Origin: a virus
Direction: 5' to 3' (one strand)
Length of the DNA stretch: 42,561 nt
Virus record (IMG/VR): IMGVR_UViG_3300034102_002314
Coordinates: 1-42,561 of that record
The translations under genes and the position numbers were made by a program. The notes under the pieces were generated by a model. That model made no database searches. It saw nothing but the letters and a program-made list of their open reading frames with translations, and had not been told where the DNA came from. Positions 2,116-21,024 of this stretch are shown here, one piece after another (within the stretch, counting starts at the first letter, position 1; every line of letters starts with the position of its first letter).

Positions 2116-2142
2116 GAACACATCTTACACACGGAGCAAACT

Positions 2143-2310: not shown

Positions 2311-2471
2311 TGGCAACAACAGTTATGTATGTTACGGTACGCTTAGACATCGAAAGTGAAAAAGCAATTGACTTTGATACTGTATTTTCAGAGATGTCAT
2401 GCGATTTTGAGTCTAATCTTGACGGTATTGAAATCACTGATACCGAAATCACTGATTATGAGGTGGTGTAA
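2310..2471 (+). CDS. small hypothetical protein
   Basis: A 53-aa acidic protein (MATTVMYVTVRLDIE...) that starts and ends at TAATG overlaps, the middle gene of a tightly coupled three-gene operon. The layout (beta-strand start, acidic C-terminus ending in EVV) is loosely like the small proteins at 3426 and 16207, but similarity is too weak to claim a family. Confidence 0.65.
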   Translation: MATTVMYVTVRLDIESEKAIDFDTVFSEMSCDFESNLDGIEITDTEITDYEVV

Positions 2472-2728
2472 TGGTCAAGGCATATAGTTCTTTAGGTAGT
2501 TTCACATTTGACCCAATTTCAGGTGAAGTTTTCATTTCAGAGTTAGATAGTGAAATGGATACACCAATTAGGGTTGACATTGCCGAATATAAACGCTATT
2601 ATGGCACTGAATTCAATGAAGGCGTTGATATTCTTGACATAGGCTACTGGATTAAAGATGGTAGTTATGTGCCAGCAGAAAATGATTGGCGCGAAGAAAA
2701 AAAGCAATTATTGCTTGACAACTTGTAA
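2471..2728 (+). CDS. conserved small phage protein
   Basis: An 85-aa protein with a recognisable layout: FTFDPISGEV, then DIAEYKRYYG, VDILDIGYW and PAENDWREE. This DILDIGYW plus DWR arrangement recurs in large-phage small proteins of unknown function. Last gene of the 2143 operon; the -35 of the next promoter (2715-2720) lies in its final codons. Confidence 0.7.
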   Translation: MVKAYSSLGSFTFDPISGEVFISELDSEMDTPIRVDIAEYKRYYGTEFNEGVDILDIGYWIKDGSYVPAENDWREEKKQLLLDNL

Positions 2729-2742
2729 TAACCAGTTATAAT
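2715..2742 (+). promoter_or_regulatory. sigma70 promoter
   Basis: TTGACA 2715-2720, 16-bp spacer, TATAAT 2737-2742. The leader CACATCTTAACACAACGGAG is shared with the next promoter. Confidence 0.8.
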
Positions 2743-2771
2743 AAACACATCTTAACACAACGGAGCGGAAA

Positions 2772-2978
2772 ATGAGTGAATTAAAAGAATATCGGGTATC
2801 ATGGCAATTTCAACCACATTGCAATAATTCCCGTATGGTGAACTTTGTGATGGCTGAAAGCACAGATAACGCCCGTGCGTTAATCACAGAGTACATTGAA
2901 CGCTATCATGGTCGATCTATGAAAACAATCCATAACATTGAGTTATATGAAAAACCTACGGTTGGATATGTAAAGTAG
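2772..2978 (+). CDS. small hypothetical protein
   Basis: A 68-aa basic protein (MSELKEYRVSWQFQPHC...). The start is fixed by CGGAGCGGAAA directly upstream. No motif recognised. Single-gene unit with its own promoter; the next -35 begins at 2979, right after the stop. Confidence 0.7.
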   Translation: MSELKEYRVSWQFQPHCNNSRMVNFVMAESTDNARALITEYIERYHGRSMKTIHNIELYEKPTVGYVK

Positions 2979-3006
2979 TTGACATCGATACCAATTAGGT
3001 TATAAT
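2979..3006 (+). promoter_or_regulatory. sigma70 promoter
   Basis: TTGACA 2979-2984, 16-bp spacer, TATAAT 3001-3006. The stretch from -35 to -10 is the same as in the promoter at 3630-3657, so one is a copy of the other. Confidence 0.8.
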
Positions 3007-3035
3007 AAACACATCTTAACACAACGGAGCGGAAA

Positions 3036-3269
3036 ATGGCTAATAAAATTGTAATCCAAGTCGAAGGTGGATTGATTCAAAATATCTTTGCAACCAATCC
3101 AGATATTGAAGTTATCATTCAAGATTTTGATGTAGAAGGTTCTACTGATTATTTTACATGGGATGACGGCACAGAAAATGGCACAGAATTCTTGGCATGG
3201 GAAACATCAGTTTCTATTGATGAAACCATATTTGATGATGTAAAATCATACATTGATAAAGCGGAGTAA
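3036..3269 (+). CDS. conserved small protein with VxGGxIQ start
   Basis: A 77-aa acidic protein beginning MANKIVIQVEGGLIQNIFA and continuing NPDIEVIIQDFDVEG. Small proteins with this IVIxVxGGxxQxV plus DxDVEVxxxDxD layout are widespread in phages and plasmids; the function is unknown. First of a three-gene operon (3036, 3273, 3426). Confidence 0.75.
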   Translation: MANKIVIQVEGGLIQNIFATNPDIEVIIQDFDVEGSTDYFTWDDGTENGTEFLAWETSVSIDETIFDDVKSYIDKAE

Positions 3270-3272
3270 ACC

Positions 3273-3416
3273 ATGAATTTAGGTTGGATAGTTATTGGAC
3301 TAATCGCGTTGCCAGTTATTGTCACTGGTGTTAGTGAATATACCACTAAACAATGCAAAATGGAATATGCTCAGAGTAATAAAACAGCAGACGAAATCAA
3401 TAAAATTTGTAGATAG
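3273..3416 (+). CDS. single-pass membrane protein, 47 aa
   Basis: MNLGWIVIGLIALPVIVTGV forms an N-terminal transmembrane segment, followed by a short polar tail (residues 21-47) with two cysteines. GGAG 8 bases upstream overlaps the end of the preceding gene. Possible inner-membrane protein acting on the host envelope; the role is unknown. Confidence 0.65.
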   Translation: MNLGWIVIGLIALPVIVTGVSEYTTKQCKMEYAQSNKTADEINKICR

Positions 3417-3425
3417 GAGCAAAAA

Positions 3426-3626
3426 ATGACACAAGTAAATGCAACCGTAACAATTCGCTTGGTATATGATACCGATGATTTACAAACAATCGATAAAGCA
3501 TCATTAGTAAAAGAGCATTTAACGGACATGGTAAATGAATTAGCTGGTGATGGTAAATTAAGTGGTCATCACGATATGACCATTGATAATTGGGATTGTG
3601 AAGTATCAGCAATTGAAATCAATTAA
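3426..3626 (+). CDS. small hypothetical protein
   Basis: A 66-aa protein (MTQVNATVTIRLVYDTDDL...). TAGGAGCAAAAA, overlapping the previous stop, provides the ribosome site. An N-terminal beta-strand and an acidic C-terminus (NWDCEVSAIEIN) are visible; no family identified. Confidence 0.7.
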   Translation: MTQVNATVTIRLVYDTDDLQTIDKASLVKEHLTDMVNELAGDGKLSGHHDMTIDNWDCEVSAIEIN

Positions 3627-3629
3627 ATC

Positions 3630-3657
3630 TTGACATCGATACCAATTAGGTTATAAT
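3630..3657 (+). promoter_or_regulatory. sigma70 promoter
   Basis: TTGACA 3630-3635, 16-bp spacer, TATAAT 3652-3657; near copy of the 2979 promoter. Confidence 0.8.
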
Positions 3658-3693
3658 AGACACATCTTAAACAACACTGACAGGAGCAACATC

Positions 3694-8419: not shown

Positions 8420-8750
8420 ATAAGCTGGTAGGTAAAACTACCAGCTTATAACGGGTAGGGGAATACCTGTTAAAGCAAAAGTGACCGTAATCATACGCAT
8501 CCAGCATCTTGATCGCGGAATCTACTAAAAATTACTTACGATAAATAGCACGAGTTATACCTAAGCCATGTCGGGTAAGTGCATGGCATTCAATATACCC
8601 ATTACCCAATAGTGGTTATATTGAATAATTTAATGTTTTCATTTTCATTTTTTTATTCTTTCTATGTTTATAGGTTAAACAGTAATACCTAAGCCATGTC
8701 GGGTAAGTGCATGGCAAGTTTTAAAGTCTAATTGGTATTTAGACTGTTTT
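8420..8750 (+). ncRNA. non-coding RNA unit 2 with two copies of a 32-nt repeat
   Basis: Paralogue of unit 1: H1 AAGCUGGUAG/CUACCAGCUU (8422-8447), H2 AACGGGUA/UACCUGUU (8450-8471) and the same terminator (AGTCTAA 8725-8731 / TTAGACT 8739-8745, TTTT). About 250 nt separates H2 from the terminator and holds a 32-nt direct repeat (8557-8588 and 8685-8716), each copy with a GCCATG/CATGGC hairpin, and between them TTCAATATA/TATATTGAA (8589-8625). A GATAAATA late-like element at 8540-8547 may start a shorter late transcript. Confidence 0.6.
8557..8716 (+). repeat. 32-bp direct repeat pair
   Basis: Identical copies at 8557-8588 and 8685-8716, each containing GCCATG-tcgggtaagtg-CATGGC. They bracket the 8589-8625 hairpin. 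Confidence 0.9.
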
Positions 8751-8807: not shown

Positions 8808-8889
8808 ATAACAAGCCTCTTAACAATGCTCAAACCTGTTATTACTTAACCCTGTCAAGCCTCTTAACAATGCTCAAACCGACAGGGTT
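8808..8889 (+). ncRNA. two hairpins presenting the same 25-nt loop
   Basis: The 25-nt sequence starting CAAGCCTCTTAACAATG and ending CTCAAACC is present at 8812-8836 and 8856-8880. The first is closed by ATAACA/TGTTAT (8808-8813/8837-8842), the second by AACCCTGTC/GACAGGGTT (8848-8856/8881-8889). Loop identity with unrelated stems suggests the loop is the functional part. A third hairpin just upstream (near 8765-8805) presents GCTCAAGTATAACC. Confidence 0.55.
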
Positions 8890-10394: not shown

Positions 10395-10423
10395 TTGACA
10401 TAGACATTTTTTAATGCTAAAAT
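10395..10423 (+). promoter_or_regulatory. sigma70 promoter of the AAA ATPase
   Basis: TTGACA 10395-10400, 17-bp spacer, TAAAAT 10418-10423. The ATG at 10414 lies inside it, which excludes that start. Confidence 0.75.
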
Positions 10424-10455: not shown

Positions 10456-11250
10456 ATGACTAAGGTAATAGAAACAGACGAAGAAATCATGGAACGACTA
10501 CGGGAACGCTTTGAGTTCTTGGAAGACATGACCAGAGCAGTTAAGAGTGGCAAGGTACGTTCGATGATTGTATCCGGTGCGGCTGGTGTAGGCAAGACAT
10601 TTGGTGTAGAAAAGGTATTAGGCTACCATGATATGTTTGCCACGATAGCCAATGACCAATCATTAAAGAAATACGAAATTGTACGCGGTGCAATTGGTGA
10701 ACTTGGTATGTTCAAGAAACTTTATGAATATCGCCACGCAAAAAATGTAGTAGTATTCGATGACTGTGATGATGTATTTCAATCAGACCGTAGCTTGAAT
10801 TTATTAAAAGCGGCACTTGATACCAGTAAGAAACGAATGTTAAGCTGGAACTTTGATAGCCATTCACTACGCGATGAAGGAATCCCAAATACCTTTGAAT
10901 TCCAAGGTGGTGTTATCTTTATCACTAACCTTGATTTTAGACACGTTAGAAGTAAGTCATTGAAAGCACATTTTGAAGCATTGGAAGACCGATGCCATTA
11001 CTTTGATTTAACTGTACATTCAATCAGGGAACGAAGTTTAAGAATTAAACAGGTAGTTTCTGATGGTATGCTTGATGATTTAGATTTAACCGATGAAGCT
11101 AAACAGGCAATTGTAGACTATGTTCTGGATAATAAAGATAAAATCAAATTATCGCTAAGAACGGTGTCTAAGACAGCCGAATTAGCCGAAGCCTTCCCTG
11201 AAAGCGATAAATGGAAAAAAGTCGCTAGAATGACACTCAGAGAAGTTTAA
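10456..11250 (+). CDS. AAA family ATPase, phage type
   Basis: A 264-aa ATPase: Walker A GAAGVGKT (residues 41-48), Walker B VVVFDDCDD (98-106), sensor-1 Asn in VIFITNLDF (153-161), arginine-rich HSIRERSLRIKQ (188-199). This family is widespread in large phages; the segments LEDMTRAVKSGKVRSMIVSG and DDCDDVFQSDRSLNLLKAALD are characteristic. The substrate is unknown; DNA or protein remodelling during early infection is plausible. Start 10456 chosen because the longer ORF start at 10414 is within the -10 box; GAGCAACT is a weak Shine-Dalgarno. Its transcript continues into the structured 3' RNA at 11255-11487. Confidence 0.85.
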   Translation: MTKVIETDEEIMERLRERFEFLEDMTRAVKSGKVRSMIVSGAAGVGKTFGVEKVLGYHDMFATIANDQSLKKYEIVRGAIGELGMFKKLYEYRHAKNVVVFDDCDDVFQSDRSLNLLKAALDTSKKRMLSWNFDSHSLRDEGIPNTFEFQGGVIFITNLDFRHVRSKSLKAHFEALEDRCHYFDLTVHSIRERSLRIKQVVSDGMLDDLDLTDEAKQAIVDYVLDNKDKIKLSLRTVSKTAELAEAFPESDKWKKVARMTLREV

Positions 11251-11254
11251 TAAC

Positions 11255-11487
11255 CGAATTCGATAGGTTAGTAGGATTGCTCCCCGAACCCCTATCAAAT
11301 GCCCTGCTCCCAAAGCCTACAATGCTCCGTATGGCTATTGGTTGAGCTGATAATAAACCGTTGTGAAACGGTACGATAGCACAACATTACAAATCATTGC
11401 TCCGAAATGTAATGTTGAACCGCTATCATCTATACAGCCCTTGACATCCTATCACTGCTCCGATATGGTGTCAAGGGCTTTCTTTTA
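11255..11487 (+). ncRNA. multi-hairpin RNA with five TGCTCC (anti-ribosome-site) motifs
   Basis: Non-coding 230 nt after the ATPase gene, ending in a strong terminator. TGCTCC occurs at 11278-11283, 11305-11310, 11323-11328, 11398-11403 and 11456-11461. At least four are in hairpin loops: GATAGG/CCTATC (11262-11296), AGCC/GGCT (11314-11336), CAACATTAC/GTAATGTTG (11382-11417, itself enclosed by GATAGC/GCTATC) and the terminator stem. TGCTCC is the exact complement of GGAGCA, the ribosome-binding site before most genes here. It probably derives from the ATPase 3' UTR, as no clear own promoter is seen. Confidence 0.75.
11436..11487 (+). terminator. rho-independent terminator with TGCTCC in its loop
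   Basis: AGCCCTTGACATC (11436-11448) pairs with GGTGTCAAGGGCT (11467-11479) through one G-T wobble, then TTCTTTT. Confidence 0.9.
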
Positions 11488-11925: not shown

Positions 11926-11954
11926 AACCCTATCTTAATTAACCGGAGCAACAA

Positions 11955-12170
11955 ATGAACGAAATGACCCCAGAACAAAAAAGACGTATCTTATCAGAAG
12001 CCGCATTCATTACCATTGATGGTTATTGTTATCGCATGGATGTATGCGATGAAACCGAATTTTACTATACTGATGAACACGATGGTGAACAATACTGTGA
12101 TACCTATGAAGAAATCGACCTATACGAAGTCGAGTTATACAAACTTCAAAAAATTCAAATCAAGGAGTAA
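11955..12170 (+). CDS. small acidic protein
   Basis: A 71-aa, strongly acidic, tyrosine-rich protein (DETEFYYTDEHDGEQYCDTYEEIDLYEVELY). Such charge could mimic DNA, as many phage anti-restriction proteins do, but there is no sequence match to a known inhibitor. CCGGAGCAACAA precedes the start. Confidence 0.7.
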   Translation: MNEMTPEQKRRILSEAAFITIDGYCYRMDVCDETEFYYTDEHDGEQYCDTYEEIDLYEVELYKLQKIQIKE

Positions 12171-12175
12171 AAACA

Positions 12176-12334
12176 ATGCAAGAATATGATGTATATCTAC
12201 GAGAATTTTGCGATGGTGAATGGTTGGATGAAATAGTCTTTGAATGTTCTGCCGATGATTTAAACCATGCCGAAGAACAAGCACTTGACGCTTACCCAAA
12301 CTGTGTGGTATTATCAGTAGCAATAGCTAACTAA
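12176..12334 (+). CDS. small acidic protein
   Basis: A 52-aa protein (MQEYDVYLREFCDGEWLDEIVFECSADDL...). AAGGAGTAAAAACA precedes it and the same ribosome site is repeated before the next gene, so the two leaders are duplicated. Function unknown. Confidence 0.65.
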   Translation: MQEYDVYLREFCDGEWLDEIVFECSADDLNHAEEQALDAYPNCVVLSVAIAN

Positions 12335-12346
12335 GGAGTAAAAACA

Positions 12347-12757
12347 ATGACACAACAAATCACTTGGGAACAATTTGAAACCTATCGCCCAGAAACCAAT
12401 ACATTTGACCCAAATGCCTCAATGGGTGGGCTTATGTTTGAAACCTATGGGGATGAATACGAATACGTTTTATCTATTCAAAATTCAGAACCAGAACGTG
12501 TTTGGACTGTTATGTGCGATACCGGAAATGTTGATGTAACAAGTGGCTGGCATTATGTCAATCGCTTGGGATATATCATTACCCAAGAACCCGCTGTTGG
12601 ATTGATTGACGTTATAAACGAAGAATACAATGAAGTCAAGGACTTTTATAGCCACCAATGCCCATCATGTGACGCATTTATAGAAGGTAATCCCGAAGTC
12701 GGTGATTCTTGTGATTGTGGGTTTGTATTCGACTTAGACGACTTCATGGAACGATAA
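12347..12757 (+). CDS. protein with C-terminal zinc ribbon
   Basis: A 136-aa protein. Residues 1-100 form an acidic domain with no match; the C-terminal part has CPSCDAF and DSCDCGFVFDL, spaced like a zinc ribbon. Last gene of the 11955 operon. Confidence 0.75.
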   Translation: MTQQITWEQFETYRPETNTFDPNASMGGLMFETYGDEYEYVLSIQNSEPERVWTVMCDTGNVDVTSGWHYVNRLGYIITQEPAVGLIDVINEEYNEVKDFYSHQCPSCDAFIEGNPEVGDSCDCGFVFDLDDFMER

Positions 12758-12765
12758 ATTAAACA

Positions 12766-12799
12766 TTGACACCTATTCAGGGCTATGAAATAATAGCCC
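12766..12799 (+). promoter_or_regulatory. sigma70 promoter with GGGCTAT/ATAGCCC repeat
   Basis: TTGACA 12766-12771, 17-bp spacer, AATAAT 12789-12794. Arms GGGCTAT (12780-12786) and ATAGCCC (12793-12799), inner GAAATA. Confidence 0.8.
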
Positions 12800-12825
12800 T
12801 ATCTTAAACATTGACGGATCATCTA

Positions 12826-13158
12826 ATGAATAACTTTATAGCATTTCATTTTAGCGATAATGATTTTCACGGTTGCCTTAGACTGGCTTTAAACCATATC
12901 ATTGAAAATCGATGTGAGGAACTAACACTAGAAAATTATAAAACCATTGCAGTTAAAGCAATGGTGGCTTTTGACTCAATCGATCATATTAGTAATTGGT
13001 ATCTTGATATGGATAAAAGTTATGATTATGAAAGATATACCAAATACTGTAATGATACATTGAAAGTATCATTTATCAAGTCAATTGATGAGTTAGACAA
13101 CTTTGAAGGTTATATTATTGATAACAACCGTCTAACTGTTTTTTATCATGGCTATTGA
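12826..13158 (+). CDS. hypothetical protein
   Basis: A 110-aa protein (MNNFIAFHFSDNDFHGCLRLALNHIIE...). Start 12826 has GGATCA at the position where other leaders have GGAGCA, a one-base variant that should weaken translation. An in-frame TTG at 12811 lies before that site and is not used. Its stop TGA is in the next -35. Confidence 0.7.
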   Translation: MNNFIAFHFSDNDFHGCLRLALNHIIENRCEELTLENYKTIAVKAMVAFDSIDHISNWYLDMDKSYDYERYTKYCNDTLKVSFIKSIDELDNFEGYIIDNNRLTVFYHGY

Positions 13159-13182
13159 CAATTAGCAATAACCTAGTATAAT
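13155..13182 (+). promoter_or_regulatory. sigma70 promoter
   Basis: TTGACA 13155-13160 (containing the upstream stop), 16-bp spacer, TATAAT 13177-13182. No inverted repeat around the -10. Confidence 0.8.
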
Positions 13183-13209
13183 TCAATACATAACTCAGGA
13201 GCAAACACA

Positions 13210-13578
13210 ATGAGCGAATTAAAACCTTACGAAATTTTCAGCAGTTCAGAATGGGATAGCCCACCAGATTATTATCTATGCGATAAAACACATTTTGAAC
13301 CATTGATTGAAAAAGCCAGAAAAGCATTAAATGATACTGGTGGTGATTACATGGTATTCTGGTGGGTTGATGAAAATCCTAATTCAATGTTTATAAAACG
13401 CATTGATGATGATGAAGAAGTAATAACATCGATTGACGATAGTGATTATTCAGAATTTACCGATGATGATTGCGAAATTGAATGGGGTGGCACACATCTT
13501 AAAGTATTTAAGAATGCAACTCAACTGTTTTGGGAATCGAAATATACTGACGAAAAGTTATGGTGTGATTTAGAATAA
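13210..13578 (+). CDS. hypothetical acidic protein
   Basis: A 122-aa acidic protein with a WDSPPDYYLCDKTHFEPL start and a central FWWVDENP segment; no known domain. CAGGAGCAAACACA gives a clear ribosome site. Single-gene unit. Confidence 0.7.
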   Translation: MSELKPYEIFSSSEWDSPPDYYLCDKTHFEPLIEKARKALNDTGGDYMVFWWVDENPNSMFIKRIDDDEEVITSIDDSDYSEFTDDDCEIEWGGTHLKVFKNATQLFWESKYTDEKLWCDLE

Positions 13579-13580
13579 AG

Positions 13581-13609
13581 TTGACATCATTCAAGAACAA
13601 TGCAATAAT
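13581..13609 (+). promoter_or_regulatory. sigma70 promoter
   Basis: TTGACA 13581-13586, 17-bp spacer, AATAAT 13604-13609. Confidence 0.75.
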
Positions 13610-13642
13610 AACACCAACTTAAACATTGACGGAGCAACCGAT

Positions 13643-14002
13643 ATGCTAACAACCAAATTAACAACTGACCAATATACCGACTTAATGAAAATGATTGATT
13701 ATGTCCTTGATAGCGAACGTAATCACTACCTTGAAACCGTTGATAGCCATGAAAGCGAAGCCGCTGAAAATCATATCTATACCATTGCCAAACGGGTATC
13801 AGAGGTATTCAACCCAGCACCAAAAAGATTTAACCATGCCTTCGATATTGCATTCAGCGTGGAAAATACCGACCCAGACGGCTATGCTACTGCCGAAGAA
13901 TTGATTGCCGCATTAGAAGACAAGCTTAACCAATTTAAAACAGACCCACAATCAATTATTGAAGCGGCTGGCGCATCATTCGATACCTACGAAGTCGAAT
14001 AA
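13643..14002 (+). CDS. conserved phage protein with HAFDIAFSVE motif
   Basis: A 119-aa protein. The C-terminal half, FNHAFDIAFSVENTDPDGYATAEELIAALEDKL and ending AAGASFDTYEVE, matches a common family of phage and plasmid small proteins of unknown function. The N-terminal half is helical. GACGGAGCAACCGAT precedes the start. Confidence 0.78.
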   Translation: MLTTKLTTDQYTDLMKMIDYVLDSERNHYLETVDSHESEAAENHIYTIAKRVSEVFNPAPKRFNHAFDIAFSVENTDPDGYATAEELIAALEDKLNQFKTDPQSIIEAAGASFDTYEVE

Positions 14003-14007
14003 AGTTA

Positions 14008-14041
14008 TTGACATAAAAACAGGGCTATTATTACATAGCCC
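14008..14041 (+). promoter_or_regulatory. sigma70 promoter with inverted (flipped) -10 palindrome
   Basis: TTGACA 14008-14013. GGGCTAT (14022-14028) and ATAGCCC (14035-14041) enclose TATTAC, the reverse complement of GTAATA in the sister promoter at 14515. At the -10 position this leaves TTACAT (14031-14036), a poor match. Confidence 0.7.
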
Positions 14042-14065
14042 TATCTTAACTAACCGGAGCAAATA

Positions 14066-14506
14066 ATGGCAACACGTTCAACAATCGCGATTGAATTAAC
14101 TGATGGTACAGTAAAACAAGTTTATAGTCATTGGGATGGCTACCTATCATATAACGGTAGGTTATTACTGGAAAATTACTCAGACCCTAAAGTCCTCGAA
14201 GACCTAATCAACTTAGGTGATATTAGCAGTCTAAGAGAAACCATTGGTGAGAAACACCCATTTGATTCTAGTGATGCTGGTATCTTTTATGACCAATATA
14301 AAGAGTTATATGGCAAAATGACAACCTTCTACGGGCGTGACCGTGGTGAAGATACGATCAGTGCTAGAACCTTCCCTAACTTTGAAATGTATCGCTTATC
14401 AGGCGAGAAAGAGGAATATGATTACATCCTACGCAACGATGGTCAATGGTATGTAAATTTCGGGCGTGGCTACACTGAACTAACCCCAGCAATGGTTGAA
14501 GAATAA
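14066..14506 (+). CDS. conserved phage protein (MATRSTIA...HWDGY family)
   Basis: A 146-aa protein with the family signature MATRSTIAIELTDGTVKQVYSHWDGYLSYNGRLLLENY and later LINLGDISSLRE. This family is found in very many large phages and has no assigned function. CCGGAGCAAATA precedes the start. Its promoter carries the flipped -10 palindrome. Confidence 0.85.
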   Translation: MATRSTIAIELTDGTVKQVYSHWDGYLSYNGRLLLENYSDPKVLEDLINLGDISSLRETIGEKHPFDSSDAGIFYDQYKELYGKMTTFYGRDRGEDTISARTFPNFEMYRLSGEKEEYDYILRNDGQWYVNFGRGYTELTPAMVEE

Positions 14507-14514
14507 AAATTAGA

Positions 14515-14548
14515 TTGACATGAAAACAGGGCTATGTAATAATAGCCC
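14515..14548 (+). promoter_or_regulatory. sigma70 promoter with GGGCTAT/ATAGCCC repeat
   Basis: TTGACA 14515-14520, 17-bp spacer, AATAAT 14538-14543. Arms 14529-14535 and 14542-14548, inner GTAATA. Confidence 0.8.
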
Positions 14549-14577
14549 TATCTTAACACAACAACGGAGCAAATATC

Positions 14578-15018
14578 ATGGGCTATTACATCCAAATCAA
14601 AGAATCAACAGCAGTTATTCCAGCACATAACAAAGAAACAGTTTTAGCAATCTGGAAAGACCTAAACAATCCAGAAAACAATCATCTTAAAAACGGTGGT
14701 GGTTGGACTGGTGGCGAGAAAACACGCCATTGGTATTCTTGGATGGATGCTGATTATGACCAAACCTGTCATTGCGTAGGTGATGTTCTAGCACAAATGG
14801 GATTCGATTATACCTTACATGATAACGGTGATGTATCCATTGATGGATATGATAGCAAAACTGGGCAAGAAGATTTATTCCTTAAACGTGTAGAAAACCT
14901 TTTAACAGGCGAAATTGAATGGTTAGGGGAAGAAGGCGAAACATGGACTACTAAATTTAACGGTGATGATGTTATCGCAGGACAAGTAATAACCAAATCA
15001 TTACCATTTATTGATTGA
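14578..15018 (+). CDS. conserved phage protein (MGYYIxIxES family)
   Basis: A 146-aa protein starting MGYYIQIKESTAVIPAHNKETVLAIWKDLN, then NGGGWTGGEKTRHWYSWMDADYDQ, a layout seen in other large phages; function unknown. The aromatic and acidic core and the repeated D-x-D stretches suggest a compact alpha/beta fold. Its stop TGA is inside the next TTGACA. Confidence 0.8.
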   Translation: MGYYIQIKESTAVIPAHNKETVLAIWKDLNNPENNHLKNGGGWTGGEKTRHWYSWMDADYDQTCHCVGDVLAQMGFDYTLHDNGDVSIDGYDSKTGQEDLFLKRVENLLTGEIEWLGEEGETWTTKFNGDDVIAGQVITKSLPFID

Positions 15019-15048
15019 CATAACAACTGGGCTATTATTACATAGCCC
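15015..15048 (+). promoter_or_regulatory. sigma70 promoter with inverted (flipped) -10 palindrome
   Basis: TTGACA 15015-15020. GGGCTAT (15029-15035) and ATAGCCC (15042-15048) enclose TATTAC, the flipped form. The -10 position reads TTACAT (15038-15043). Confidence 0.7.
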
Positions 15049-15075
15049 TATCTTAAACACAACGGAGCAAAGCAA

Positions 15076-15210
15076 ATGAACATTAAAATAACATTACCAT
15101 CAATTACCGTAGATTGGGCTGGCGCAAAAAAAGATTTAGTGGTATTGTTTTCAATTATGTTGACAATGATTTATTCTTATGTGATTTATGTGGTATTAAC
15201 ACATAACTAA
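15076..15210 (+). CDS. 44-aa single-pass membrane protein
   Basis: MNIKITLPSITVDWAGAKKD then a membrane helix (LVVLFSIMLTMIYSYVIYVVL). ACGGAGCAAAGCAA precedes the start. Expected in the host inner membrane; role unknown. Confidence 0.65.
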   Translation: MNIKITLPSITVDWAGAKKDLVVLFSIMLTMIYSYVIYVVLTHN

Positions 15211-15251
15211 TTCCAATTAGAATATACTCACACTAAACAGGAGCAACGACC

Positions 15252-15521
15252 ATGACACCAGACGAAATTAAAGTATTAGAAGCCGCTATTGATTTATGTG
15301 GTGGCTACGATAAGGTTAGAAAATACATCGATGAAAAGAACGCTGACATCAGTATTATCTGGAATGTAGAAGATGTGATGGCACGAGCTAATGAACGCCA
15401 TATCCCGATAACACATGACCAAGCTTATACTATCCTAACCAATATGAAACGCAGACACGATGCTACATTAGGTATCAATTGGGATGTTATCGATTGCCAT
15501 ATCGATAATAACATCGAATAA
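15252..15521 (+). CDS. hypothetical protein
   Basis: An 89-aa protein (MTPDEIKVLEAAIDLCGGYDKVRKYIDEKNAD...). The segment ARANERHIPITHDQAYTILTNMKRRHDATLGINWDVIDCHIDN is typical of a small phage family with a conserved IPITxxQAxxIL segment; function unknown. AGGAGCAACGACC gives the ribosome site. No clear own promoter upstream, so it may be co-transcribed with 15076. Confidence 0.75.
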   Translation: MTPDEIKVLEAAIDLCGGYDKVRKYIDEKNADISIIWNVEDVMARANERHIPITHDQAYTILTNMKRRHDATLGINWDVIDCHIDNNIE

Positions 15522-15526
15522 AATTA

Positions 15527-15560
15527 TTGACAACAATCTGGGCGTATGTAATAATAGCCC
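15527..15560 (+). promoter_or_regulatory. sigma70 promoter with GGGC/GCCC repeat
   Basis: TTGACA 15527-15532, 17-bp spacer, AATAAT 15550-15555. GGGCgTAT and ATAGCCC arms, one extra base in the left arm. Confidence 0.75.
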
Positions 15561-15586
15561 TACATTAACCAAACGGAGCAATGATA

Positions 15587-15817
15587 ATGTTGACATTTAA
15601 ACTAACTGGCAATATCTTGGAAGTTATTGAAACTACCATGACATTTAATAATACCTTGAAATCATACTGGTATTATGACATTATTAACTGGCGCAAATCA
15701 ATCACTGGTAAACAAGGTGCAAAGATAGACCGCGATATTGAGCCTTGGCAGATTGAATGGATTAAGCAACATTATTATTCAAAAGTAGGGTTGACATCAG
15801 ATTTGGTTGCTGTATAA
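15587..15817 (+). CDS. small hypothetical protein
   Basis: A 76-aa protein (MLTFKLTGNILEVIETTMTFNNTLKSYWYYDI...). Start 15587 is preferred to the ATG at 15581 because GGAG (15575-15578) is then 8 bases away, the usual spacing here. Its stop TAA (15815-15817) lies in the TATAAT of the next promoter. Confidence 0.7.
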   Translation: MLTFKLTGNILEVIETTMTFNNTLKSYWYYDIINWRKSITGKQGAKIDRDIEPWQIEWIKQHYYSKVGLTSDLVAV

Positions 15818-15824
15818 TACAACC
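15791..15824 (+). promoter_or_regulatory. sigma70 promoter overlapping a gene end
   Basis: TTGACA 15791-15796, 16-bp spacer, TATAAT 15813-15818. GGTTG (15805-15809) and CAACC (15820-15824) enclose the -10. Confidence 0.8.
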
Positions 15825-15844
15825 AACTTAAGAAGGAGCGAAGT

Positions 15845-16016
15845 ATGAACACTTACACAGTTATCTTATCACAATGGCAAACGTTCGTTTGTTGATAAGA
15901 TTTTTAAAAACATCACGGCTGATAACCTTATTCAAGCTGGTCAATTAGCATTAGCTAAATGGAATAAACCGGATGCAGTTATCAATATGTGCTGGCGCAA
16001 TTGGAGTAAAGCATGA
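15845..16016 (+). pseudogene. frameshifted small gene
   Basis: The frame from the ATG (AAGGAGCGAAGT upstream) reads MNTYTVILSQ and then stops at codon 17. A one-base shift near 15875 (CAA T GGC AAA) restores a long frame, GKRSFVDKIFKNITADNLIQ and onward to NWSKA, ending in TGA at 16014-16016 and coupled to the next start. The combined product would be about 56 aa. This may be a mutation, a programmed +1 frameshift or an assembly indel. Confidence 0.6.
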
Positions 16017-16210
16017 CATACCAACAACCAGCATTAGGTACATTAGATGCACAATTAACACCAGCAGATAAACCTACTGTTATCGTTAAAATGTTTAAGT
16101 TCGATAGCATTAGACAGGAAGCCTACTGGGTTACACAATACGTTAAACAGTTCAAGACCATTGAACAAGCCAATAATTATATCAATCAAGTAATGGAGCA
16201 AAACAAATGA
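16013..16210 (+). CDS. small hypothetical protein
   Basis: A 65-aa protein (MTYQQPALGTLDAQLTPADKPTVIVKMFKFDSIRQEAYW...). TTGGAGTAAAGC in the end of the previous frame provides the ribosome site, which argues that the shifted frame upstream is translated. Overlaps the next start by four bases (ATGA). Confidence 0.65.
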   Translation: MTYQQPALGTLDAQLTPADKPTVIVKMFKFDSIRQEAYWVTQYVKQFKTIEQANNYINQVMEQNK

Positions 16211-16380
16211 CACCAAAATTCAGAGCAGTAGAAGTAAAACTTACCGTTTATGTGCCAATCGATACTTCACATGATGTCGATGAAACACTAGATTACTTAA
16301 ACGACAAATTACATACAGACCCAGAATTCTACGGTGAAATCGACTTCGGTTGCATCAACTTCACTGATGAAGTAATCTAA
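16207..16380 (+). CDS. small acidic protein
   Basis: A 57-aa protein (MTPKFRAVEVKLTVYVPIDTSHDVDETLDYLNDKL...NFTDEVI), beta-strand then helix then acidic tail. TGGAGCAAAACAA serves as ribosome site. Function unknown. Confidence 0.65.
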   Translation: MTPKFRAVEVKLTVYVPIDTSHDVDETLDYLNDKLHTDPEFYGEIDFGCINFTDEVI

Positions 16381-16386
16381 ATTAAC

Positions 16387-16415
16387 TTGACATAAACAAT
16401 ACACAATGTAATAAT
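16387..16415 (+). promoter_or_regulatory. sigma70 promoter
   Basis: TTGACA 16387-16392, 17-bp spacer, AATAAT 16410-16415. The right half (GTAATAATAGCC) matches the GGGCTAT promoters but the left arm is lost. Confidence 0.75.
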
Positions 16416-16446
16416 AGCCATATCTTAACTAACTGGAGCAATCACA

Positions 16447-16693
16447 ATGAATACACTAGAAACTTCAATATCATGCGAAATCGATGACTTAATTAAATGT
16501 GTAATGGCTGATACTGGTAAATCATTTCAGCAAGTGGAAAAAGAAATAATACATCTACCCAGAAAATACCAAAACTTTTGTAACTACAAAATTCGGTAGA
16601 GATGAAGCCATAGACAATTGGTTATATGAATCTATCTATAAAATCCTAGATGAAAATAACATCCAATCAGTTTATATCACCGAAGCAATTTAA
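16447..16693 (+). pseudogene. frameshifted small gene
   Basis: The frame from the ATG (CTGGAGCAATCACA upstream) gives 50 codons ending at 16599. In the +1 frame, coding-like sequence starts near 16550 (YIYPENTKTFVTTKFGRDEA) and runs to EAI and TAA at 16691-16693. The junction is near the A-rich run GGAAAAAGAAATAATA, suggesting a one-base slip. The rejoined protein would be about 81 aa. Confidence 0.6.
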
Positions 16694-16707
16694 ACGGAGC
16701 AATATCA

Positions 16708-17274
16708 ATGAAACAACTAATTACCAATATCTACCCAATTACCGAACTAACAGAACAACAACTCAATAAAGCACACGACAAATTCATTGAAAACCTAGAA
16801 TTCATGGATGAGTTTGTTATAGAAGATATTAAAAACATTGCTAAAACTATCGGTATTCAAATCGATGAAATCCATTACTCAGGGTTCTACTCACAAGGCG
16901 ATGGTGCTATGTTTACAGGCACTTATCAATATAACCCTAATTGGGAAAATGACCTAACCGCATACTCACCCAATGAAGATACCATTAAAACCATTGCCAA
17001 AAATTTAGAATATGCCAATGATAGAAAAGATTTAATCGCTACCATTGCCCATACCAATAGCCGATATTATCACGAAGATACCGCTGATATTACTATCACA
17101 GTCGATGATATGGATATTAACCCAATCTATTCACTAGACCTAAAAGCCTTCATGCGATGGATGTATGAGCGCCTAGAAACAGAATATGAATACCAAATGT
17201 CATTAGATGCCTTTAAAGAAACCGCTTTAGATAATGATTACCACTTCGATATAGACGGTAATCTTAAAGGTTGA
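16708..17274 (+). CDS. conserved phage protein with HYSGFYSQGDGA motif
   Basis: A 188-aa protein. Residues about 50-75 contain DEIHYSGFYSQGDGAMFTGTYQY, the hallmark of a widespread phage family of unknown function. The rest is acidic with a helical C-terminus. ACGGAGCAATATCA precedes the start. Its stop TGA is inside the next TTGACA (17271-17276). Confidence 0.82.
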   Translation: MKQLITNIYPITELTEQQLNKAHDKFIENLEFMDEFVIEDIKNIAKTIGIQIDEIHYSGFYSQGDGAMFTGTYQYNPNWENDLTAYSPNEDTIKTIAKNLEYANDRKDLIATIAHTNSRYYHEDTADITITVDDMDINPIYSLDLKAFMRWMYERLETEYEYQMSLDAFKETALDNDYHFDIDGNLKG

Positions 17275-17300
17275 CATAAACAATGGGGCTATGTAATAAT
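17271..17300 (+). promoter_or_regulatory. sigma70 promoter, decayed palindrome
   Basis: TTGACA 17271-17276 containing the stop codon; TAATAA/AATAAT at 17294-17300. GGGGCTATgtaata is kept but the right arm has become ATAACACC. Confidence 0.7.
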
Positions 17301-17326
17301 AACACCATATTAACAAGGTGCAACCC

Positions 17327-17758
17327 ATGATTAACTTAAACAATACCTATACCACCGAAAACGGTAAAGAAGTCGTACTATACGAAATCATCAACAATCA
17401 AATCATCGGGCGAGTTAAACACGATGATAAATGGCACGGTATGCAATGGGATACCAACGGACAATGCCCTAATACTAACCTGTGCCTAAAAATAAAACCA
17501 GCAATCACAATCATCTCAGTTTCAAACGTATCACCACTAACTAAACAAGTTCCATACTACGGCAGACTCTTTACAGTACCAGCCGACACAACATATATGG
17601 CTACCGATAAAAATGGGTGTCTTTATGCCTATACTGGTAATAAACTACCAAAACCAAACTTGGTATCTGGCTGTTTCACTGTGAATGATGATATTACCTT
17701 TATCGCACAACTTGAATTTGAAGGCGAGTGGACTAAATCAGTAACCAATGTAGAATAA
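17327..17758 (+). CDS. hypothetical protein
   Basis: A 143-aa protein (MINLNNTYTTENGKEVVLYEI...), probably beta-rich, with two similar-looking halves each starting with a Y-T/F-V strand pattern. Start 17327 chosen; the GTG at 17318 overlaps the AAGGTG ribosome site. Part of VxxxYxTxxGKxVxL resembles small phage beta-domain proteins; function unknown. Confidence 0.7.
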   Translation: MINLNNTYTTENGKEVVLYEIINNQIIGRVKHDDKWHGMQWDTNGQCPNTNLCLKIKPAITIISVSNVSPLTKQVPYYGRLFTVPADTTYMATDKNGCLYAYTGNKLPKPNLVSGCFTVNDDITFIAQLEFEGEWTKSVTNVE

Positions 17759-17760
17759 TC

Positions 17761-17790
17761 TTGACATACACATACTAACACAAGGAGCAA
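17761..17790 (+). promoter_or_regulatory. relic promoter lacking its -10 palindrome
   Basis: TTGACA (17761-17766) is followed only 17 bases later by AAGGAGCAA (17782-17790). Compared with sister promoters, the entire -10 and inverted-repeat segment is missing. Confidence 0.55.
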
Positions 17791-17795
17791 TAACC

Positions 17796-17969
17796 ATGAC
17801 AATGACCGCACAAGAATTACTCGACCACCTAACAGCCATTAAAGAACTTCATAACTTATCCGAATTTCAAGTAGTCTTTGAAGACCATGACAACTCATTG
17901 AATGTACAATACTTCAATGTTTATAGTGCTAGAATCAAGATCGTAGATAAAGAACTTATTTTAACTTAA
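17796..17969 (+). CDS. small hypothetical protein
   Basis: A 57-aa protein (MTMTAQELLDHLTAIKELHNLSEFQVVFEDHDNSL...). AAGGAGCAATAACC precedes it. Because the promoter in front has lost its -10, expression probably depends on read-through from 17271. Confidence 0.65.
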   Translation: MTMTAQELLDHLTAIKELHNLSEFQVVFEDHDNSLNVQYFNVYSARIKIVDKELILT

Positions 17970-17978
17970 GGATAAACA

Positions 17979-18134
17979 ATGAATGAACAAATCAAACTCG
18001 ATATGGCTCAACAGAATATCAACAACTATTCTTATAGACAAGGTAATAATTGTATCATCGTCAACTACGGGAGAACTGAATGCTATTACAAATTCAACCA
18101 AGATAATAATATCATCGATGTAATCTTTGACTAA
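17979..18134 (+). CDS. small hypothetical protein
   Basis: A 51-aa polar protein (MNEQIKLDMAQQNINNYSYRQGNNCIIVNYGRTECYYKF...). AAGGATAAACA precedes the start. Last + strand gene before the DnaA-box region. Confidence 0.6.
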   Translation: MNEQIKLDMAQQNINNYSYRQGNNCIIVNYGRTECYYKFNQDNNIIDVIFD

Positions 18135-18141
18135 ACATCCA

Positions 18142-18158
18142 TAATGCTAGCTGTGCAT
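18142..18158 (+). repeat. ATGCTAGCTGTGCATA element
   Basis: ATGCTAGCTGTGCATAA matches the core of the 33-bp tandem repeat at 26022-26087 and the spacer of several promoters (ATGCTAGCTGTATAAT). Confidence 0.6.
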
Positions 18159-18186
18159 AATACCACCAGTACCACTATACATACCC

Positions 18187-18432
18187 TGTGGATAACCTGT
18201 GGATAACCTGTGGATAACCTGTGGATAACTCTCAAGAACTCTCAAGAAGGAGTGAAATAGAGTGAAATGCTTACTAACCATTTTATCTACACCAATTTTC
18301 ACAATAACAAACCTTTTATTATATCATTTTAGCCAAAATTATGCAACCCTTTTATGCACAATAGAAGCACGTTTCTAACACGATGTCAAGAGAAAAAGTT
18401 GGCACGATTCTTGCATAAAAAAGTTATCCACA
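18187..18432. other. candidate replication origin with five DnaA boxes
   Basis: TGTGGATAA, a perfect consensus DnaA box (complement TTATCCACA), occurs four times at 18187-18195, 18198-18206, 18209-18217 and 18220-18228. The repeat is exactly 11 bp, so all boxes face one side of the helix. A fifth, inverted box TTATCCACA is at 18424-18432. Between them is AT-rich DNA (18265-18360, with TTTTATTATATCATTTTAG) that could unwind. No gene lies between 18135 and 18503. Alternatively the array titrates host DnaA. Confidence 0.75.
18400..18416 (+). promoter_or_regulatory. sigma54-type promoter
   Basis: TGGCACG (18400-18406), ATTC, TTGCAT (18411-18416): a perfect match to the -24/-12 consensus TGGCACG-N4-TTGCW. 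The same 20+ bases occur on the - strand at 28094-28110. Confidence 0.6.
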
Positions 18433-18446
18433 GGCTGAAAAACCTC

Positions 18447-18475
18447 TTGACAAGCAGGAATGCTAGCTGTATAAT
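18447..18475 (+). promoter_or_regulatory. sigma70 promoter, extended -10
   Basis: TTGACA 18447-18452, 17-bp spacer ending GCTAGCTG, TATAAT 18470-18475. Confidence 0.85.
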
Positions 18476-18503
18476 CTGATAATATACACTTAACTGAGCG
18501 AAT

Positions 18504-18821
18504 ATGATGCCTATACACACGAATGATGATTTATACATGAATGCCGCGAATACACCAGCGGTATTTGGTAAGGTTGAGAAGAAGGTTATTAAGCAAGTGA
18601 AGTTGAAGCCAGTTAAGGATGATAATTACATCAAGAATCATATACAGGTAATTGCTCCGATAAGATATACCAATCAAGTTCCGTTAGAAGCAAAGTTGGT
18701 ATGTTATGCGATTATGTTGTTTATTATTGGATGTGCATTATGGGATGGATATAGACTTATCAGTGCGTGTTATCGAGGAATAACCAAGTGGATATACAAT
18801 GATGCTAGCTGTATATTGTGA
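18504..18821 (+). CDS. C-terminally anchored membrane protein
   Basis: A 105-aa protein: polar, lysine-rich N-terminal 70 residues (VEKKVIKQVKLKPVKDDN), then a membrane helix (LVCYAIMLFIIGCALWDGY). ATG 18504 or 18507 could be the start (GAGCGAAT upstream). Its last codons (GATGCTAGCTGTATATTG) come from the GCTAGCTG promoter-like element, as in the 25858 gene, so the C-terminus DASCIL may be a by-product of that repeat. Confidence 0.65.
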   Translation: MMPIHTNDDLYMNAANTPAVFGKVEKKVIKQVKLKPVKDDNYIKNHIQVIAPIRYTNQVPLEAKLVCYAIMLFIIGCALWDGYRLISACYRGITKWIYNDASCIL

Positions 18822-18826
18822 TAAAT

Positions 18827-19040
18827 GATAAATAAATATGTAATAAAGATATATTAAGAAACCAATCCTTGCAGTCCAATAAGTCGAGAATATGTTTGGC
18901 TAAGATATATTGATATTATAATAGGCAATTGTAGTGGAGCTGACCATAGAAACAGGACAAACAATTAGAATCTTCAAAATAACTTCCATAGCTGTTTTAG
19001 CGAAGGAGGCTTTTCTTTGTCTGGACAAAAGTAAATAAAT
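18827..19040. other. intergenic region, possible structured leader
   Basis: No ORF is convincing between 18822 and 19095. A GATAAATA late-like element is at 18827-18834; AAGATATATT is present twice (near 18847 and 18900). A CTTC..AGC/GCG..AAG hairpin near 18986-19010 precedes GGCTTTTCTTT. A small RNA is possible but unproven. Confidence 0.35.
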
Positions 19041-19069
19041 TTGACAGATATTTCAAAAACTGCTATGAT
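19041..19069 (+). promoter_or_regulatory. sigma70 promoter
   Basis: TTGACA 19041-19046, 17-bp spacer, TATGAT 19064-19069. Confidence 0.75.
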
Positions 19070-19095
19070 GACACCATCTTAGACAGGAGCGAAAC

Positions 19096-19311
19096 ATGAG
19101 AGCGAATTGGGATTTATCGGGAAGAATGATTAGTGGTAAATATCACGGCATTCCATATCGAGGCATCATTGAAACTACTAGGGTTTGTTATGGTACTGAT
19201 TTGGTGTTTAGAGTACAGTTAATGGACATGATAGAGGTCTTCGGGGAATGGCGTTCTGTTATCTTAGTCCAGCAAGAACGGGATAAAGAAAACTATGAGC
19301 TTGACGTATGA
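19096..19311 (+). CDS. small hypothetical protein
   Basis: A 71-aa beta-rich protein (MRANWDLSGRMISGKYHGIPYRGIIETTRVCYGTDLVFRVQLMD...), similar in layout to small phage proteins with GxYxGxPYxGxIxxTRxxYG; function unknown. CAGGAGCGAAAC precedes the start; ends with ATGA overlapping the next gene. Confidence 0.75.
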   Translation: MRANWDLSGRMISGKYHGIPYRGIIETTRVCYGTDLVFRVQLMDMIEVFGEWRSVILVQQERDKENYELDV

Positions 19312-19490
19312 TAGCACTTATATTATGGTTGTTTGTTATTGCCATATCGTTTGTGTTCTTATTCATGTTCATTGAATTGGTTGTAATTTTATTCGTTGGA
19401 TTTGTGGCACTGGAGTTATGGCAACAGGGATTCTTAGGGCAGTTATTGGTTATTGGTGTTCTATTAACTTTCATTATTTTTAAAAAATAG
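19308..19490 (+). CDS. two-helix membrane protein
   Basis: A 60-aa, almost wholly hydrophobic protein with two membrane helices (residues about 2-30 and 38-57) and a KK end. It starts in a four-base overlap with the 19096 gene, so the two are coupled. Confidence 0.65.
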   Translation: MIALILWLFVIAISFVFLFMFIELVVILFVGFVALELWQQGFLGQLLVIGVLLTFIIFKK

Positions 19491-19491
19491 G

Positions 19492-19520
19492 TTGACATTA
19501 TAGAGATTCGTTGTCATACT
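19492..19520 (+). promoter_or_regulatory. weak sigma70 promoter
   Basis: TTGACA 19492-19497, 17-bp spacer, CATACT 19515-19520. Confidence 0.5.
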
Positions 19521-19544
19521 GTTCACATCTTAACGGGGACAGAT

Positions 19545-19745
19545 ATGACAACGCAACGTGGTATCAAGGTTAATCAGATATGTATGAACTGTGAAGGTTT
19601 ATTTATGGTTCGTAAAGCTGAGGTAAATCGAGGCAACGGGAAGTATTGTTCTCGAACTTGTAAGCTGGAACATCAGCATAAACTAGGTTATTATCGAGAG
19701 CATTTAGCCGAGTTGAATAAAAAGATTGACAGCATAGAATGCTAG
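19545..19745 (+). CDS. zinc-finger protein, paralogue of the 24359 product
   Basis: A 66-aa protein with CMNCEGLFMVRKAEVNRGNGKYCSRTCK: two zinc knuckles (CxxC and CSxxC) separated by 17-18 residues, with R-G-x-G-K-Y/F-C-S in common with the 24359 product. This zinc ribbon also appears as an accessory domain in HNH proteins, but no nuclease motif is present. The last codon and TAG stop are formed by the GCTAGC of the next promoter. Confidence 0.75.
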   Translation: MTTQRGIKVNQICMNCEGLFMVRKAEVNRGNGKYCSRTCKLEHQHKLGYYREHLAELNKKIDSIEC

Positions 19746-19754
19746 CTGTATAAT
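19726..19754 (+). promoter_or_regulatory. sigma70 promoter, extended -10
   Basis: TTGACA 19726-19731, 17-bp spacer with ATGCTAGCTG, TATAAT 19749-19754. Confidence 0.85.
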
Positions 19755-19781
19755 GTACGACATCAACACTAGGAGCAAGTA

Positions 19782-20051
19782 ATGACACCATCACAATTGA
19801 AGTATAAAGTAAATGAATTCAAACCAGATTCATATTATTTTAATCGTGGATCAATGAAATTTTTTGGTGATACCATGCGTAATTATGGTGTAAGATCAAC
19901 TAATGTCAATGTACTTTCACAAGGGCATGGCGTGATTATTACTGATTGTTGGGAACTCTATCGCAAGCGCCCAGTAAAAAATGGTTTACAACGTAGTGTA
20001 TATTTTGATAAAATTACATTTAAACGAGTATTTCCATTAGGGGATGAATAA
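19782..20051 (+). CDS. conserved phage protein (FFGDTMxNYGV family)
   Basis: An 89-aa protein: DSYYFNRGSMKFFGDTMRNYGVRSTNV, then CWELYRKRPVKNGLQRSVYFDKITFKRV. This arrangement is shared by many phage and some plasmid proteins of unknown function. AGGAGCAAGTA precedes the start. Confidence 0.82.
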   Translation: MTPSQLKYKVNEFKPDSYYFNRGSMKFFGDTMRNYGVRSTNVNVLSQGHGVIITDCWELYRKRPVKNGLQRSVYFDKITFKRVFPLGDE

Positions 20052-20052
20052 T

Positions 20053-20190
20053 ATGCCAGCAAGATATATTGTAAAGGTTTGGGATGGTTATAGCAATCGT
20101 TCCAGTGAGATGTTCGGCACTTATGATTATTTGGCTAATATGTGCAGTCGTTATCCGGCTGGATATATTTGGAGTATTGAACCAGCTTGA
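20053..20190 (+). CDS. small hypothetical protein
   Basis: A 45-aa protein (MPARYIVKVWDGYSNRSSEMFGTYDYLANMCSRYPAGYIWSIEPA) with a VKVW start and a closing YxWSIEPA strand. Follows the 19782 gene after one base; no separate Shine-Dalgarno. Stop TGA is inside the next -35. Confidence 0.6.
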   Translation: MPARYIVKVWDGYSNRSSEMFGTYDYLANMCSRYPAGYIWSIEPA

Positions 20191-20215
20191 CAAGTGATAA
20201 TGCTAGCTGTATAAT
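20187..20215 (+). promoter_or_regulatory. sigma70 promoter, extended -10
   Basis: TTGACA 20187-20192 (contains the upstream stop), 17-bp spacer with ATGCTAGCTG, TATAAT 20210-20215. Confidence 0.85.
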
Positions 20216-20246
20216 GTACGAATAAATCAACCACGGAGCAAATCAA

Positions 20247-20324
20247 ATGAAAGTTATTGAATTCATCAAAAATGCCTTCAATGAAGGTCGTCGTCAAATC
20301 CCACACGAACAATACTGGAAATAA
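20247..20324 (+). CDS. 25-aa peptide
   Basis: MKVIEFIKNAFNEGRRQIPHEQYWK, amphipathic and basic. CACGGAGCAAATCAA gives a full-strength ribosome site directly after a consensus promoter, which supports it as a real gene despite its size. Confidence 0.6.
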   Translation: MKVIEFIKNAFNEGRRQIPHEQYWK

Positions 20325-20327
20325 GCA

Positions 20328-20417
20328 ATGGTTAAGATAGTTTATACAATGGGTCAATGGTACTGGTCAACTGATGGCATCGACTGGTATTCAAGTAAAG
20401 AAAGAAATTTTATTTGA
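20328..20417 (+). CDS. 29-aa peptide
   Basis: MVKIVYTMGQWYWSTDGIDWYSSKERNFI, tryptophan-rich. It follows the 20247 gene after three bases and its stop TGA is in the next TTGACA, the same packing rule used by accepted genes here. Confidence 0.5.
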   Translation: MVKIVYTMGQWYWSTDGIDWYSSKERNFI

Positions 20418-20450: not shown

Positions 20451-20474
20451 AATCAAACAATGGAGCAGAACTAA

Positions 20475-20786: not shown

Positions 20787-20792
20787 AAAGAT

Positions 20793-21021: not shown

Positions 21022-21024
21022 TTA

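Follow-up and report, generated by a model that had tools for sequence, protein, structure and literature searches.

The question raised by this locus is whether the region that follows a phage ATPase gene encodes an RNA whose hairpin loops are directed against the ribosome-binding sites of the phage itself. The window, i.e. the whole stretch of DNA analysed, is a contig from an uncultured virus (42,561 bases, 34.8% GC), whose minus strand holds replication genes (UvsW-type helicase, DnaB, primase) and whose plus strand holds many small genes. The UvsW-like helicase gene (38492-41077, minus strand) has an internal LAGLIDADG homing-endonuclease domain, which is probably an intein, and the region 31341-31928 (minus strand) gave a weak match to a phage protein kinase inhibiting host transcription (phrog_15752). 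Two tandem abiF RNAs (RF03085; 32 and 54.3 bits) were found on the plus strand at 8808-8843 and 8851-8887, near a direct repeat, tacctaagccatgtcgggtaagtgcatggca (8558-8597 and 8686-8716, plus strand), in a stretch without clear genes. No Abi_2 gene was found in the window alongside them, and an orphan defence-associated abiF RNA in a phage might act as a decoy antitoxin.

The element downstream of the ATPase gene

The element (11251-11487, plus strand) follows the gene for an AAA-type ATPase (10456-11250, plus strand; phrog_1250), a homologue of T4 NrdC.10. The longest ORF begins at 10414, but the start is probably the ATG at 10456, because position 10414 is overlapped by the -10 hexamer of a sigma-70-like promoter (TTGACA-17-TAAAAT; 10395-10423, plus strand). 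This promoter, recognised by its consensus match only, is the likely source of a transcript carrying both the ATPase and the RNA. No promoter-like site belonging to the RNA itself was found in the approximately 200 nt upstream of it, and the site at 10395-10423, before the ATPase, is the nearest upstream one able to yield the RNA. On the simplest reading of the sequence, therefore, the ATPase transcript probably has the RNA as its 3' end.

Five copies of TGCTCC, starting at positions 11278, 11305, 11323, 11398 and 11456 of the plus strand, lie within 184 nt (11278-11461), in agreement with the five copies in 185 nt reported in the first-pass annotation. Outside the RNA, the plus strand of the 42.6 kb holds only two further copies. 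The maximum number per such span in 300 shuffles was one (252 shuffles) or two (48 shuffles), and never more than two, so a chance origin of the cluster of five was rejected. The predicted fold of 11251-11487 (237 bases) has an energy of -78.8 kcal/mol, versus -47.6 +/- 4.0 kcal/mol for shuffles (z = -7.9). In this fold, copies 1, 3, 4 and 5 occupy 8-nt hairpin loops, the last of them being the terminator loop, just as had been claimed for at least four of the copies. Predicted hairpin 1 (11262-11296) carries the loop AUUGCUCC at 11276-11283, hairpin 2 (11306-11347) the loop AAUGCUCC at 11321-11328, and hairpin 4 (11375-11427) again AUUGCUCC, at 11396-11403; the predicted terminator (11436-11487) consists of a hairpin with the loop ACUGCUCC at 11454-11461 and then a U-rich tail. 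Part of copy 2 (11305-11310) contributes to the base of hairpin 2, where 11306-11309 pair with 11344-11347; all these features are on the plus strand. A genome-wide ranking of the hexamers in predicted loops placed other frequent loops, many of them AT-rich, above TGCTCC.

No Rfam family matched the RNA of the window at the gathering threshold or at E <= 1, none matched the RNA of 12 relatives at the gathering threshold, and no DNA match to the RNA was found among 50,697 phage records. Based on the fold and the five TGCTCC copies, we describe 11251-11487 as a putative multi-hairpin anti-Shine-Dalgarno RNA with predicted boundaries, which probably forms the 3' UTR of the ATPase mRNA.

Ribosome-binding sites complementary to the loops

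The plus strand contains 30 copies of GGAGCA, 29 of which lie shortly upstream of an ATG. The leader sequence that had been described for the early genes was thus recovered before 29 start codons, all on the strand of the RNA. At positions 15574, 16695, 21283 and 21561 the sequence is CGGAGCAAT, the 9-nt complement of ATTGCTCCG; this perfect complementarity had been recognised in the first-pass annotation, but its position in the RNA is 11396-11404 rather than 11397-11404. The main run of putative targets (11945-24200, plus strand) comprises 26 GGAGCA Shine-Dalgarno sequences of small plus-strand genes. Three further sites (2133, 3416 and 3683, within 2133-3688, plus strand) have neighbouring genes that use GGAGCG, which is able to pair with UGCUCC via a G-U pair. 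Most tagged genes are each preceded by a separate sigma-70-like promoter, and the position of the -10 region implies short leaders, of about 25 nt. Tagged sites precede small early-type genes, which we take to be early because of their promoters, small size and position, and of those genes for replication and virion proteins that were sampled (helicases, SSB, UvsX, terminase, portal, baseplate), almost all lacked a tag. The early promoters, for example those before 14066, 14578, 21296, 21574 and 25480 (plus strand), have inverted repeats around the -10 region (GATGGTGC GATAATA GCACCATC; GGGCTAT..ATAGCCC; AGCCGCTATAATGGCGGCT). The arms of these repeats vary by gene yet remain complementary, and one element was found in both orientations; an operator, a cruciform or repeat conversion may be the cause.

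Tags were found almost only on the strand of the RNA, both in the window (19/66 versus 0/27 on the opposite strand) and in G002 (25/60 versus 0/72), G003 (22/54 versus 0/32), G016 (13/87 versus 1/85) and G021 (12/103 versus 0/106). Many of the minus-strand genes of G002 (L021, L023) share TTGAGGTG before the start, a Shine-Dalgarno type unlike that of the GGAGCA genes. The predicted duplex of the tagged window genes with the loops has an energy of -13.8 kcal/mol, versus -6.0 kcal/mol with the tail of the E. coli 16S rRNA, a stand-in that may differ from that of the host. For untagged window genes the predicted energies with the loops were -6.9 kcal/mol (plus strand) and -4.5 kcal/mol (minus strand).

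The ATPase of the window does not itself have the full tag: the leader of the ATG at 10456, given this probable start, is ACACGAGCAACT, which is tag-like but one G short. This bears on a reading in cis, according to which the main partner of the 3' hairpins would be the ribosome-binding site on the very ATPase transcript that carries them, in autoregulation, and the other matches would arise from one shared early Shine-Dalgarno sequence. The loop does fit the ATPase's own site in distant relatives with one hairpin (L008, L011, L015, L016, L062, L246 and L248). However, the ATPases of the window and of L003-L005 lack the full tag, yet 20-31 other genes are tagged, and four or five loops are more than one site in cis would need. 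Hairpins with class B loops (see below) are also found after genes whose own sites are untagged. We therefore consider a role mainly in cis to be unlikely.

Joint variation of loops and sites in related phages

The RNA was located 3' of T4 NrdC.10-like ATPase genes in many uncultured phages. L003, L004 and L005 (ATPase identities of 93%, 78% and 65%) have GGAGCA sites, and TGCTCC loops directly after the ATPase. Hairpin 1 of L003 presents the same loop as that of the window, with TGCTCC retained on a swapped stem, and the hairpin stems of L004 and L005 are wholly unlike those of the window. The conservation of the TGCTCC loops in related phages, by which the first-pass annotation had proposed to check its claim, was therefore observed, with loops kept while stems were replaced, which is the opposite of the pattern named there as refuting the claim. 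L006 (58% identity) shows two loops of the sequence TTCGCTCC, and GGAGCG is more frequent than GGAGCA before its early genes.

A profile scan of viral contigs for relatives of the ATPase provided approximately 90 additional loci, with three classes of loop and site. Class A combines GGAGCA(A) sites with TTGCTCC loops (pair TTGCTCC/GGAGCAA), class B combines GGAGCGA(A) sites with ATTCGCTCC loops (pair TTCGCTCC/GGAGCGAA), and class C combines GAGGGCA(A) sites with TGCCCTC loops (pair TGCCCTC/GAGGGCA). Single site/loop matches were found in the distant relatives L011 (GGAGCTA/TAGCTCC), L015 (AGGAGCTA/TAGCTCCT), L016 (AGGGAGTA/TACTCCCT), L248 (AGTGAGAA/TTCTCACT) and L246 (AGAGAGGTT/AACCTCTCT); in the last of these several genes share the site, and the complement lies outside any clear hairpin.

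In 37 representatives (75% identity), the site of each ATPase was compared with the 3' region of the same locus, and the longest complement averaged 6.35, versus 5.44 +/- 0.17 when partners were permuted, with none of 20,000 permutations reaching 6.35, and 5.34 for shuffled 3' regions. The loop class was the majority site class in 31/37 loci, and the site class in 11/14 representatives, a value attained by 12 of 20,000 permutations. Classes A, B and C correspond largely to clades, so these match statistics overstate the number of independent events, and we count some six to eight independent cases in which loop and site changed jointly.

The association was also found when loci were chosen by their loop alone. 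Selection by the class B loop CCGATTCGCTCCCGG yielded at least 80 loci, of which a minority, from unrelated contigs, look like chance matches. Among the matches listed for these loci, the strand of the RNA had 225 GGAGCG, 39 GGAGCA, 18 GGAGCT and 12 GGAGCC (294 GGAGC), and the opposite strand 13, 10, 7 and 13, respectively (43 in total). The 16 loci chosen by the loop TAGTGTGCCCTCGCTA had 50 GAGGGC, four GGAGCA and no GGAGCG, and the ATPase was present in 13 of the 16. A pattern scan for pairs of class A loops returned apparently unrelated, untagged sequences and served in effect as a negative control. Among the matches listed, class B loops sharing a locus with the ATPase lie 25-153 or 587-922 bases past its stop codon, and small genes intervene in the four loci of the latter group that were inspected. 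Other class B hairpins follow small genes with untagged sites of their own, which favours action in trans. A hairpin with a class B loop was also observed after a small gene with the motif MATxKKFxVAGVST (L283, L296, L309, L325, L333 and L342) and after a MKRFNPETKTFKVF-like gene (L275, L277, L281 and L337). Given these hairpins after other small conserved genes, one phage may have two such RNA loci.

The loop ATTCGCTCC was exact in 91 of the 114 class B hairpins, on about 70 different inner stems. The conserved element is thus the loop, as would be expected if the loop were the pairing surface. The 15-nt core of class B, CCGATTCGCTCCCGG, is near-invariant with its closing pairs included, and this could point to hairpins serving as protein sites (for processing, termination or a regulator), with no role for base-pairing. 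The closing pairs differ in classes A and C, however, and a protein site leaves unexplained why the loop tracks the complement of the ribosome-binding site of each clade; we find this explanation scarcely credible.

Another possibility is that the loops resemble the anti-Shine-Dalgarno end of the 16S rRNA and follow a host-driven preference for Shine-Dalgarno sequences, the correlation being due to shared ancestry and host. Every loop contains CUCC or CCUC, the 16S core, and the correspondence of classes to clades would also fit. However, the extension of the sites past GGAG or GAGG (CA, CG or GC) matches the loop and goes beyond what pairing with the 16S rRNA, which leaves it unpaired, would need. 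The extension is enriched at start sites (31/48 versus 8/54 in G003; 15/55 versus 8/399 in G016). Those genes of these phages that lack the tag have other sites, the class B pair of L008 stands alone, far outside clade B, and loops stayed fixed while stems were replaced. Mere resemblance to the 16S rRNA therefore appears very improbable.

The pattern has exceptions. The loops of L061 and L244 match their own sites only partly and L063 is mixed, and no matching loop was found near the GGAGCA-type sites of L101, L115 and L120. In the contig of L067, a single candidate TTGCTCC hairpin was located at another place, on the strand that also carries the GGAGCA sites. The element was absent from the cultured T4-like ATPase relatives KVP40, AM101, JS98 and PM2, which have plain terminators or almost no gap at this position; in PA5oct, 8 nt match its own site, but they lie inside a terminator stem. 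These exceptions narrow the generality of the association and leave the core finding intact. A leader-pattern scan for further class A phages returned mostly single, chance-looking matches; a fragment of 24.8 kb without the ATPase (L184, G030) has 12 clustered GGAGCA sites.

Proposed mode of action and comparison with known systems

The claim that the RNA is built to bind many phage ribosome-binding sites is strongly supported, since loops and sites change jointly and loops outlast stems, and its predicted pairing with the early sites can be regarded as well supported. Because the tips of the hairpins and the signal at the genes change together across related viruses, the RNA very probably controls early protein production, most likely by switching it off. 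We estimate a probability of roughly two in three for a multi-loop antisense RNA, encoded in the 3' UTR, that would pair in trans with early Shine-Dalgarno sequences and block their translation. The first-pass annotation had proposed either a switch shutting off early translation or a 3'-UTR-derived regulator tied to the ATPase gene, and the anatomy of the locus favours both together.

Once transcribed and released as predicted, this 3'-terminal part of the ATPase transcript would display the complement of the early Shine-Dalgarno sequence in several loops. These loops would pair in trans, over approximately 7-9 bp, with GGAGCA(A) on many early mRNAs with short leaders, and the pairing would block 30S binding. 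Early translation would then fall once enough of the ATPase-plus-RNA transcript had accumulated, so the predicted timing is that of a self-limiting brake tied to transcription of the ATPase. Escape is predicted for genes whose Shine-Dalgarno type differs, among them those for replication and virion proteins.

We infer repression, rather than another outcome, from the analogues NfeR1 and LhrC. The data that support pairing leave the sign of its effect unset, and they would also fit an RNA by which early mRNAs are protected, stored or degraded together with it, or a sponge of tagged mRNAs keeping the RNA off host targets. A stable duplex at the ribosome-binding site could, for example, keep a nuclease such as RegB away from GGAG (PMC3014915). 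However, duplexes at Shine-Dalgarno sequences usually stop initiation, as for NfeR1 and LhrC (PMC10746234, PMC4132741), and RegB was not found in the contigs of the relatives. Pairing without repression thus seems improbable.

The NfeR1/alpha-r14 ("cuckoo") sRNAs of alpha-proteobacteria have three hairpins with one identical unpaired anti-Shine-Dalgarno motif on differing stems, and their redundant sites silence mRNAs at translation start (PMC10746234). The phage RNA likewise has several hairpins with differing stems and one identical, unpaired anti-Shine-Dalgarno motif. Unlike the alpha-r14 motif CCUCCUCCC, which is a general anti-Shine-Dalgarno sequence, the phage loops are UUGCUCC, UUCGCUCC or UGCCCUC; they exceed the Shine-Dalgarno core, vary by clade and co-vary with the early sites of their own phage. 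Furthermore, alpha-r14 is encoded on the bacterial chromosome and has metabolic targets, whereas the phage RNA lies 3' of a phage gene. In the LhrC1-5 RNAs of Listeria, CU-rich motifs recur redundantly, in the loop of a hairpin, in a single-stranded stretch and in the loop of the terminator. Any one of these can bind a Shine-Dalgarno region, and several mRNAs might be bound by one RNA (PMC4132741). Redundant motif copies (1, 3, 4 and 5), including one in the terminator loop, are also a feature of the phage RNA, but LhrC has a short UCCC motif, is stress-induced and has few host targets, and both its sequence and its host differ; no homology to LhrC was detected, as no Rfam family matched the phage RNA. 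We know of no private tag in the LhrC system and of no co-variation with its regulon.

In T4, RegB cuts GGAG in early mRNAs and RegA is a repressor (PMC3014915). The phage RNA is similarly predicted to act on early mRNAs at the ribosome-binding site, but the T4 factors are proteins (a nuclease and a repressor) rather than an RNA. No match to RegA or RegB (PF01818, PF10715) was found in the contigs of 12 relatives (30-183 kb, and possibly incomplete) by searches that recovered RegB in JS98 and RegA in JS98 and KVP40. Known phage-encoded regulatory RNAs such as OOP, PreS, VpdS and 24B_1, as far as they are described in a review (PMC12197685), have host RNAs or at most a few transcripts as their targets, and for none of them is a match to the early-gene ribosome-binding sites of a phage as a set described there.

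We regard as an even bet the broader proposal that each clade of these T4-like phages has a private Shine-Dalgarno "address tag" and a cognate, co-evolving multi-loop anti-Shine-Dalgarno RNA, an RNA-only counterpart of the RegA/RegB shut-off that spares other sites. If the RNA acts as proposed, it would be a viral regulator of an entire early regulon, working via the ribosome-binding sites, with naturally occurring matched changes on record for both partners, and the odd Shine-Dalgarno extensions (GGAGCA, GGAGCG and GAGGGC), unneeded for 16S pairing, would be explained. Early shut-off would have an RNA-based route in phages for which the T4 proteins were not found, and the natural classes would provide ready-made orthogonal Shine-Dalgarno/anti-Shine-Dalgarno pairs. 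No published description of such an RNA was found, mainly in the open-access literature. The loops are complementary to the target sites, with the support of their joint change, as in trans-acting anti-Shine-Dalgarno sRNAs. By its predicted way of working, the phage RNA therefore belongs with the multi-loop anti-Shine-Dalgarno sRNAs, and a virus-encoded member with a private, co-evolving tag on its whole regulon appears to be new.
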